Positions 13,698 through 62,851 of a stretch of DNA of 64,000 bases are shown here, one piece after another. The stretch is from Candidatus Pacearchaeota archaeon (GTDB lineage Archaea > Nanobdellota > Nanobdellia > Pacearchaeales > GW2011-AR1), in contig JAGLGM010000002.1 in the NCBI GenBank assembly GCA_023144035.1, forward strand, positions 113,781-177,780. Reading direction: 5' to 3'. Both the position numbers and the translations under genes were made by a program. The notes beneath the pieces are model-generated. The model was not told the DNA's origin. It did not search any database and saw nothing but the letters and a program-made list of their open reading frames with translations. Within the stretch, counting starts at the first letter, position 1, and each line of letters starts with the position of its first letter.

Positions 13698-13770
13698 TTT
13701 TATAAATCTCTAGCTTTATGCGAAGTGTATCTTCACGAGCATCCGCAGTTTATGAGGACAATAGTTGAGA

Positions 13771-13956
13771 CTATAAGTCTCTAGCTTGAATAGTTCGTCT
13801 GTTATTTGCCTTTGCTCTATCAATTGCTTTTTCTAGAATATCTTCAACTTTTCTCTCAAGCTCAGGCCCAACTTCTTCAGCAACACTAGACACAGCATTT
13901 TCTTTATCTAACTCTTTCACAACTTTTCTTATATTATTTTTTACAATTAATGTCAT
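13771..13956 (-). CDS. Archaeal histone
   Basis: VSSVAEEVGPELERKVEDILEKAIDRAKANNRRTIQARDL histone fold. Confidence 0.9.
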   Translation of the reverse strand: MTLIVKNNIRKVVKELDKENAVSSVAEEVGPELERKVEDILEKAIDRAKANNRRTIQARDL

Positions 13957-27243: not shown

Positions 27244-27366
27244 AGTAAAATAAAGTATTCCTTCAGACTTTTAAATGTTTAGAAATGTAAGTTGGGAATA
27301 GGCCACTATGCGAAATGTTGCCTTCATGAGCATCCCAATTTAATTGGGTGGCTGATTATAAAGGTT

Positions 27367-27715
27367 GTAAGTCGGGAATAGGCCACCTTCTGTCATTCGT
27401 CGAGGCCTCTGTATTCAGAGGTCATCCCTTGGGATAAGGGCTTGAATCGAATGTGTTAACATTTGACTATGCGGCTTTAAGCCTTGCACCAGTTAGGATG
27501 TTCGTTTCATCAAATCCTTTGTTTCGAAGTTCCACGCATGTTTCATAACTCAACAAAGACTGTGGCGTTTCTGTAACAGAGCCTTGCTTCACAACAACAA
27601 TCCTTTCGGAAAGTAACTTTAATGTGGTGGGCGGACCTTCCACAGAACCCAGAAATCATTTTTCTATTTCTTGACAATTTAATGTCAGAGCCCCGAAGTT
27701 AACTACCCAACTTAC
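27367..27715 (-). ncRNA. rnpB: RNase P RNA
   Basis: GGAAGGTCCGCCCACCACA, ACAGAAACGCCACAG, AGAAGGTGGCCTATTCCCGACTTAC; 10-bp closing helix P1 (GTAAGTTGGG/CCCGACTTAC). Confidence 0.88.
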
Positions 27716-58943: not shown

Positions 58944-60016
58944 AATTATCCAACAAATTAATCTTATTTAAGCATTATTATACTAAAAAATAAAAACCCA
59001 ACATAACAATTAATAAACAAACAGAAATCCCAGTCATCTAATCAAATTGATTAGGTGTGTTTTTACCTTTATAGTTTGGAAAACTAAAAGGAGGCTTTTA
59101 GTAGTTCTATGCTGAAATTCTCGGCGAACCTTGAATATTACACAAGAACTCTATCAACGTCATCTTCTTTGACGGCCTTAGTTGTCTCGTTTTGCGGATG
59201 GCTTCGAGCTTAGATGCATTCAGCTCTTATCCACTCAATGCGTAGCTATGCAGCCTGCCATATGACAACTGCTCACCAGAGGCATCCAAGTTCCGTTCCT
59301 CTCGTACTAGAAACTTGTTCCACTCAGACAACAACACACCTAGTAGATATCATACAAACTGTCTCGCGACGTTCTTAACCCAGCTAACGATCCCTTTTAA
59401 TACGTGAACTCCGGCACCCTTGCACGCTTCTGCACGCGCAGGATAGGAAGAGCCGACAGCGATGTACCAAACCGCCCCGTCAATTCGGACTATCGGGGGC
59501 GACAAGCCTGTTATCCTTGGGGTAACTTTTCTATCAGACACGGCATCTATTAAAAATGCACGTGGGTTCACTAGGCCCTACTTTCGTACCTGCATTTCTT
59601 ACTGTTCAAAATACAGTCAGACAAGCTTTTGCCCTCGCACTCAACTCCAGATTTCCAAGCTGGATGAGCTTGTCTTTGGGTCCAACCGATATCTTTTCGG
59701 CTGGGCACCGCCCCAGTCAAACTGCCCGCCTGCTGATGTCCCGTAAACGGTAAGCAAGCTCATAAAAAATGGGTAGTATTACATTGTTCGCTCCACCATG
59801 ACCAAAATCATGGCTTCGACGCTCCTACCTATACTGTGCATTTCATATAAGTTCACAACAACAAGTTGCAGTAAAGTTCCACAAGGTCTTCGCTTCCCAC
59901 TAGGTGTCTCCGGCCTTTTCACCGGAAGGTATTTTCAGAAGGCCCCAACTAGGGACAGCGACAACTTCGTTAAACCATTCATGCAAGTCGCAATTCATAC
60001 GACAAGGTATTACGCT

Positions 60017-60788
<772 letters not shown>

Positions 60789-62851
60789 GATGGACCTTAG
60801 CTCCCTTGAAAAGGAGTTTTAGACACCACCACTGGGCAGGTCTCACCAAGTATACACGTCTTTTCAGATTAGCACTTGGCTACGTTTTTGGTAAACAGTC
60901 GAGCCATCCTTGTTACTGAGATCTATTAATGCATAAATATTACTAAAAACACAAAAATAGACATCCCTTCAGCCGAAGCTACAGGACTAATTTGCTGAAT
61001 TCCCTTAGTTGGTTTTACCTTACATGTCTTGGCCTACTAAGCCTGAGCACCAGTGTCGGTTGTGGGTACAGCTAATTAAACTAAGAGTATAATCTTTTCA
61101 CTGGCTCTTGGAATCGGCGATTTTGTTCAATAAATTCATTCACATCTTTGGATTACCCTAAATAAACTTCTTTATCAAAACACTCTCTCAAGTGCTCACC
61201 TATCCGAAAGCAATTCATACTATATAAAGTTCAATCAGTCCAGGAATATTAACCTGATGTCCATCGTCGTACTCAGTTAAGATACGACTTAGGTACTGAC
61301 TAACCCTCGGTTGACATACATTGCCGAGGAAACCTTACTCTTTCGACATTTTCCGTTCTCAGGAAAATCACATCCTACTATTACCAGGATTCTCATTGGT
61401 TACCGCTCCATCCTTTCTCTCGAAAAAACTTCTACGCAGAAACCACGCCTGCTTACTAGAACATCCGTTCCGGATGCCTCCAAAGTATCGGTATTATGCT
61501 TAGCCCCGTCCATTTTCAGGGCACTGAACCTCAATAGGTGAGCTGTTACGCTTTCTTTAAATGATAGCTGCTTCTAAGCTTACATCCCCAGTGTCTCAGG
61601 TTCAATACACCTTTCGATACACTTAGCATAAATTTAGGGACCTTAACTTTGGTCTGGGTTGTTCCCCTCTCGGAACAGTATCTTACATACTGACCCTGTT
61701 TCCTATCCTAAGCAGTTAACAGATTCTGAGTTGGAAAAATCTCCGTAAGCATTAGCTCCTGCAAGATTTATCCGTTGCTTTACGCCGTCAACAAGCTAGA
61801 TAGGACTATACGAAGGCATATTTCAGCAGGAACCAGCCATCGCCAGATTAGATAAGCTTTTCACCCCTATTCACAGATCATTCGAGTACATGTCCATAAC
61901 ACCGGTTCAGCCCTCCATCCTCCTTTCGGAAGACTTCAGCTTGTCCATGAATAGATCATCTGGCTTCAGGTCTAATCCATATGACTAACGCCTTTTCAGA
62001 CTTGCTTTCGCTTCGGTTACCTAACAAAGTTAGTTAGCCTCGCCATATAGAATAACTCCCTGGCCCGTTCTTCAAAACGTACGTTACAAACCTTTTCTAC
62101 CGAAGTAGAGTAAGGCCAGTAACAAACTGTAACTGCTAGATTTCAAGTCTTTTAACCCTCTGTTAAGAGTACTTTTCAGCTTTCCCTCGCGGTACTAGTT
62201 CACTATCGGACTTTGGTTTTATTTAGGGTTGGCTGTTAATCCAGCCATATTCAGACCTCCAATCTAGGAAGCCCTACTCTTTTAAAGTTCCATCGTAGAA
62301 TCTTAGAATACGGGACTATCACCCTCTGAGGTGCACCTTTCCAGGCGACTTTTTCTCAATTCCTTAGACTTATCCTAACCACATCTCTAACTTCCTTTCG
62401 AAAGCAGATTCAGCTTGCCCTGTTCCCTTTTCGCTCGCTGCTAATAAGGGAATAATTATTTATTTTCTTTTCCTACCGGTACTAAGATGTTTCAATTCCC
62501 GGCGTATTTCCACATTTCTGTGCATTCGGAGATCTTGGGATCAAAGCTTGCATGCAGCTCCCCCAAGCATATCGCAGCTTGCCACGTCCTTCATCAAAAC
62601 CAAAACCAAGCTATCCATCTAACAGCATAAAATTTTTAGTAGTCCAGACTATAAAGTCTGCGAAACCTTTTTACAAGTTTCGCGACCCAGAAAATATAAA
62701 TTTTCTGAGTGGGATTTCTGTTTGCTTATTTCATTGAACATGATTCCGCTTCCCAACCCATTAAGGGAAGGTAACGGTAGGAAACCGTTAGGTATCCTTC
62801 GTTTGTTCTCAAACCGATCCCTGAATTTCTTCTGGAACCATCTTCTCTCAT

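Follow-up and report, generated by a model that had tools for sequence, protein, structure and literature searches.

Hairpin-bearing units of 42-95 nucleotides that carry gene tails in a Candidatus Pacearchaeota archaeon and its relatives

Tyrosine-integrase elements of the SSV type in tRNA genes, and e14 and phage 21 in icd, restore the tail of the gene that they enter. Integron cassettes, described also from archaea (PMC9668308), bear attC sites that recombine as the bottom strand, with an unpaired spacer, extrahelical bases and a variable terminal structure (PMC8946536), and the pairing of guide and target in IS608 can be retargeted (PMC5934647). In this study, we explored a stretch of 64,000 nucleotides (the window) from a Candidatus Pacearchaeota archaeon (assembly GCA_023144035.1, contig JAGLGM010000002.1, positions 113,781 to 177,780), in which an archaeal histone gene and the RNase P RNA gene rnpB each bear a short insert at the 3' end (table 1). 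These inserts resemble each of the described systems in some respects and differ from each in others, as set out below.

Interrupted gene ends in the window

The first-pass annotation of the window had described a duplicated rnpB 3' end around an insert, and its coordinates proved exact to the base: a 21-nt repeat occupies 27286-27306 and 27366-27386, with 20/21 positions identical and a spacing of 80. Read along the minus strand, the tail GTGGCCTATTCCCGACTTACA is followed by a spacer, a hairpin that we call M, and a second tail, GTGGCCTATTCCCAACTTACA. At the histone gene the order is the same (..GCT AGA GAC TTA TAG, spacer, M, then GCT AGA GAT TTA TAA), with a 16-nt repeat at 13701-13716 and 13772-13787, spaced by 71. 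The common end that the annotation had seen in the two inserts is likewise real: the shared motif occupies 13717-13744 and 27307-27335, and shuffles predict 0 matches to it.

Which copy is native follows from an empty site. In the same genus (G093, L099), an uninterrupted rnpB ends ..GGTGGCCTATTCCCAACTTAC and continues directly into sequence resembling the flank behind the second copy in the window, with a tRNA behind it; thus, the second tail (27286-27306) is the native one, and the 80 bp at 27307-27386 were inserted together with a tail of their own. By analogy with rnpB, and from the repeat itself, 13701-13716 would be the native histone tail. Among 30 rnpB loci, chosen as the best-scoring ones and so not a random sample, the same position is occupied by an insertion or a tail duplication in six (L075, L087, L088, L092, L093, and L104), and the insertions at this identical position in several genera are independent. 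In the rnpB of G024, the inserted tail, unlike the displaced copy, pairs perfectly with the 5' strand of the host, which shows that inserted tails do take over the functional role. A second type of hairpin (ATGAGACTCTCCATTTGAATTTGGAAATCTCATA) sits at the same junction in the rnpB of G036 and G013 (L040, L092), and further M-like types probably exist. Besides the rnpB of the window, the source genome (G000) holds a second archaeal RNase P RNA match (C14:26457-26680, 95.3 bits), which could be a second gene or contamination.

Table 1. Features of the two interrupted gene ends, in window coordinates
Feature	Position	Strand	Evidence
Archaeal histone gene (target)	13771..13956	minus	PF00808, 28.9 bits
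71-bp unit at the histone gene	13717..13787	minus	16-nt direct repeat, spacing 71; M 46.0 bits
Restored histone tail (.. ARDL, stop; GAC TTA TAG)	13771..13787	minus	Translation; synonymous to native GAT TTA TAA
Hairpin M of the histone unit	13717..13742	minus	Covariance-model matches
Putative displaced native histone tail	13701..13716	minus	Tail repeat and analogy with rnpB
RNase P RNA gene rnpB (target)	27367..27715	minus	RF00373 match, 129.6 bits
80-bp unit at rnpB: restored tail, spacer with anti-O, HP1, hairpin M	27307..27386	minus	21-nt direct repeat, spacing 80; empty site in same-genus L099
Restored rnpB 3' tail, unit-borne (functional 3' strand of P1)	27366..27386	minus	RF00373 match ends at 27367
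Anti-O of the rnpB unit, complement of the first native-tail bases	27349..27353	minus	Three-way junction predicted with DNA parameters; family permutation test p=5e-5
HP1 of the rnpB unit, perfect hairpin CCCAAT-TAA-ATTGGG	27334..27348	minus	
Hairpin M of the rnpB unit (ATGC-TC-ATG..CAT-TTC-GCAT-A)	27307..27333	minus	Models R1/R2: 39.2 bits, 34.0 bits with filters off; covariation
Displaced native rnpB tail	27286..27306	minus	Same tail and same downstream sequence as the uninterrupted rnpB of G093, L099

Architecture and folding of the units

The units measure ~42-95 nt and keep one order: a gene tail, restoring the stop codon or the RNA 3' end, a short segment (anti-O), often a hairpin (HP1), then M, and behind it the displaced native tail, which starts with the core O. 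M is a hairpin of 25-28 nt ending ..GCATA (unit end ..TTCGCATA). Its outer stem of 4 bp leads through an internal loop, TC/TTC when read along the gene strand, to an inner stem and a loop; the inner stem has 3 bp, or 2+3 bp around a bulged base. The covariation of M lies above that of all 500 shuffles in both length classes, a statistic that relatedness among the copies inflates. HP1, directly 5' of M, pairs perfectly over 4 bp or more in 20/39 copies, against 5.6% expected. The anti-O, upstream of HP1, is the complement of O, the bases with which the native tail begins; the pairing was first spotted by eye, and in a permutation test that takes all elements the units' own pairs beat permuted ones (p=5e-5, inflated by relatedness). 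Anti-O with O, HP1 and M are predicted to form a three-way junction, which is the minimum-energy fold of the rnpB and G126 units under DNA folding, with modest z-scores of -0.7 to -2.9. The core O is usually AAG, ATG, GTG, or GTT, giving junctions of GCATA with AAG, ATG, GTG, GTT and so on.

The strand that folds can be approached through imperfect pairs. On the gene strand, the non-Watson-Crick cells of the M stems are A-C in 17 cases versus G-T in one, and because A-C there is a G-T wobble on the other strand, the antisense strand is likelier the folded one and probably the better folding candidate. Ten of the 17 A-C cells fall at one position of the stem, perhaps through common descent, which lowers the effective number; the direction is consistent. 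Covariation and strand bias together imply selection on folding. The annotation had drawn the hairpins on the minus strand; the hairpin itself is backed by covariation, and the A-C mismatches on this (gene) strand point to its antisense, and M would be one part of the larger three-way junction.

Units also occur in tandem. At L018 and L049, the anti-O of the first unit, which bears the gene tail, matches the native O, from which it is now separated by a tail-less second unit joined exactly after GCATA; this layout is the expected product of recombination between two M sites. Further tandem units are present in G007, G126, G132, and C9 of the source genome, those of G126 being arrays of 57-nt units with O = ATGAG. 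Some copies are atypical. Three of them (L024, L042, and L050) are antisense to, and abut, tRNA 3' ends. In L142 (G155), a 42-nt unit lies in frame within an open reading frame; its M, at 1051-1086, has a changed outer stem (AGGC/GCCT) and adds a peptide around SKGSPNTVASPK. At L001, the third M copy is followed by a near-identical 62-nt copy of the start of a nearby DUF192-like gene, and a VapC-like gene stands between the two copies (703-765 and 1436-1497), an arrangement that departs from the tail-unit layout.

Family, targets and recoded tails

The annotation had proposed a covariance-model search for more copies, and with a model built from six copies (R1) the source genome (776 kb, 0.78 Mb) yields 20 M matches at E<1, ~17 of them convincing (best E 1e-8). 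The family thus has ~17-20 copies in this genome, and both window inserts belong to it. R1 also has hits in 12 further genomes from a set of 185 in the same taxonomic family (13/185 with the source genome), nine genera in all; in a pattern scan of named genomes, some of the M-bearing relatives are Ca. Pacearchaeota and Nanoarchaeota MAGs. A wider model (R2), run over 383 genomes of the class, finds matches confined to this family, although its stricter filters may lose weak ones. All genomes compared are metagenome assemblies. Relatives are reached only with a covariance model, since the histone/rnpB motif as a plain pattern has no match outside the source genome; viral contigs gave 0 matches to motif patterns, and a search of the open-access literature returned no description of this family. 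Two outcomes had been named in advance as damaging, a lack of further copies in the genome and a known RNA family unrelated to insertion: the copies are many, and no curated Rfam covariance model matches over M at permissive thresholds. The further copies, the empty site, the repeated rnpB insertions across genera and the tandem units instead support the proposed family of tiny mobile elements that enter gene 3' ends and duplicate the tail, from which we infer that the units move.

The annotation had also proposed to check whether copies always stand at duplicated gene 3' ends: 34/48 lie behind an open frame of 60 codons or more, versus 27% at random places, and most others follow rnpB or tRNA genes, while some are tRNA-side, tail-less or in frame inside an open reading frame. 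Beyond rnpB, the targets include, in the source genome, gyrB and a small gene with two tandem units; alaS and, from its tail, a TFIIB-like gene are judged from sequence to be probable targets as well. The same YbjQ-family gene is occupied in two genera, at a different point in each. A similar DNA tail, ARRATTATTGTGATTTTT, recurs as a target in three genomes (L026, L032, and L051), and would code ..YCDFL if read as a gene end.

The tails themselves are often recoded. Across 13 coding tail pairs (141 codons), 72 codons are identical, 60 differ synonymously and nine change the amino acid (pS 0.70, pN/pS 0.14); both tails are under coding constraint. For example, the pair QGASEMLAYGTAVKLK, up to its stop codon, has 12 codons changed and no amino acid, and the pair EESSSSGVRRIKAILE has 11 changed codons, including a serine written TCT versus AGC. 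Divergence lies beyond the bases next to M, which are conserved, as in a strand-exchange core. Since the displaced copy is no longer a gene end and would have decayed had the changes followed insertion, the inserted tail seems to have diverged elsewhere while still coding, most simply in another lineage, and to have arrived with the unit. Pairs with amino acid changes (L025, L064, and L144) agree with a foreign origin. In G007, G132, and G013, on the other hand, the two tails are identical or nearly so over the whole copy, and those of G007 and G132 indicate that recoding is not required. Three other readings were discarded: a diversity-generating retroelement, because the changes are synonymous and show no adenine specificity; plain target-site duplication, which cannot account for heavy synonymous change with both copies still coding; and a leader peptide in M, the frame of which is not conserved between inserts that differ in length by one. 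For annotators, displaced gene tails are a pitfall.

Recombination models

We consider it slightly better than an even bet that the inserts are non-autonomous, site-specifically recombined cassettes of ~42-95 bp that act through a folded strand. Each unit would begin with the core O, followed, where a gene is the target, by the remainder of that gene's 3' end, and then by anti-O, an optional HP1 and M; the circular form of the unit would put O right after M. With O in that place, anti-O/O, HP1 and M would fold into one three-way junction, probably on the antisense strand. A recombinase supplied in trans, most likely a tyrosine recombinase acting on the folded single strand as the integron integrase does on attC, would join GCATA to the core within a gene; the unit would enter between gene body and native tail, its own tail would restore the gene, and the insertion would be harmless. 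Recombination between M sites at the same point would stack more units into arrays. The sequences show the family, the limits of the units, an empty site, the structure, the strand bias and the coding constraint on the two tails; single-strand recombination, the class of enzyme and transfer between lineages as the source of recoded tails are those parts of the model that we infer.

The resemblance to integron cassettes (PMC9668308, PMC8946536) is structural, as judged from sequence: a hairpin site at the 3' end of the unit, an outer-arm partner at its other end that would be rejoined on circularisation (the anti-O/O pairing), arrays with exact junctions, an unpaired internal spacer, an extrahelical base and a terminal loop, and a bias to one folded strand. 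Unlike cassettes, M units have no cassette open reading frame, their cargo being the target gene's own tail within 42-95 nt; they use many chromosomal targets and not one attI; and their cores are mostly AAG, ATG, or GTG rather than GTT, and they lack the R'/R'' core of attC, which has GTT at the crossover. No source-genome gene passes the integron-integrase cut-off: against TIGR02249, XerA scores 194 bits versus a cut-off of 265, a 398-aa tyrosine recombinase 28.5, and a 413-aa one gives no match. Given the cores, the lack of an integron integrase in the source genome and the lack of cassette reading frames, the M units are, by these tests, not integron cassettes; they are possibly distant functional cousins. 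Several observations count against the cassette model as such. The core triplet is degenerate, only generic units beginning with GTT; the T locus (L001, L007:19446) and the tRNA-side copies depart from the simple layout; and G111 and G126 have M with no PF00589 match, in MAGs that are incomplete. No pattern of a recombinase co-occurring with M emerged over 30 genomes. The source genome encodes XerA, the two other (non-Xer) tyrosine recombinases of 398 and 413 aa, and an IS200 transposase (NF033573), with no M near the tyrosine recombinases or the transposase in the neighbourhoods read.

The next best accounts are decayed integrative elements and an HUH mechanism. According to the first, the units are scars of larger tyrosine-integrase elements with double-stranded att sites at gene 3' ends, decayed by internal deletion until the restored tail, the arm M and the displaced tail remain. 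Tail restoration at the 3' ends of tRNA and protein genes is what such elements do, supplying a synonymously different gene end and displacing the native one, and the two non-Xer recombinases and the tRNA-side copies L024 and L042 fit this origin. Yet M units, at less than 100 bp, carry neither integrase nor other gene, one conserved hairpin serves many unrelated target genes with many different cores, and the units are complete, uniform (42-95 nt) and tandem, with one exact joining point. Selection on folding, implied by covariation and strand bias, and the lack of M beside any integrase in the neighbourhoods read also speak against scars, which we regard as unlikely.

Still less probable is single-strand transposition of the IS200/IS605 or REP/TnpA kind, in which M would be the transposase hairpin and anti-O the guide pairing with O as cleavage or target site. 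The small hairpins, the many intergenic copies and the base pairing of element and flank are shared with these systems (PMC5934647, PMC8266576), the anti-O/O pairing resembles that of guide and target in IS608 (PMC5934647), and Y1_Tnp genes occur in 6/14 M-bearing genomes, the source genome included (its NF033573 IS200 gene). However, 8/14 have no Y1 match, no M matches at the Y1_Tnp loci read and no transposase lies next to M in the neighbourhoods read; in M units the hairpins stand between guide and target, the antisense strand is the likelier folded one, tandem units are exact, and the carried gene tail is unexplained by such chemistry.

RNA-guided homing, with M as a scaffold, the adjacent native tail as a nuclease guide and the recoded tail escaping cutting as in a natural gene drive, is very improbable: the hairpin does abut target-matching sequence and recoding does preserve the protein, but the M-adjacent bases, where a seed is expected, are the unchanged ones, the G007, G132, and G013 tails are (nearly) identical throughout, PF07282 (TnpB-type nuclease) is absent from the source genome and no known RNA family matches M. 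We give just as little credence to a terminator, processing or stability signal of RNA 3' ends spread by gene conversion with accidental tail duplication, which the conserved hairpin right after stop codons would suit, given worse pairing on the transcript (sense) strand, R1 matches in only 13/185 family genomes, antisense copies at tRNAs, one copy in frame inside an open reading frame, and tails diverged as coding sequence elsewhere.

Should the cassette model hold, the units might represent mobile elements of a new class: cassettes of 42-95 nt that carry a gene tail, recombine in folded single-stranded form with a recombinase in trans, and pass alternative, synonymous ends of housekeeping genes (gyrB, alaS, histone, TFIIB-like and rnpB) between archaeal lineages; we offer this broader claim tentatively, and with some doubt. 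They would then be among the smallest known site-specifically inserted units, and, by carrying the last codons of the target gene, would show how DNA can enter a compact genome simply and without harm. Folded-strand recombination would reach beyond integrons into DPANN archaea, predicting a recombinase yet to be discovered, and mobile DNA could swap the ends of essential genes.

Other insertions were seen in passing. The gyrase subunit A gene of the source genome (C1, L007:4851-9803; 1650 codons) has two intein insertions that include LAGLIDADG domains, and the 23S rRNA match of the window (59081-62642) spans 3562 nt versus a model of 2987 positions, and may hold an intron or insertion.
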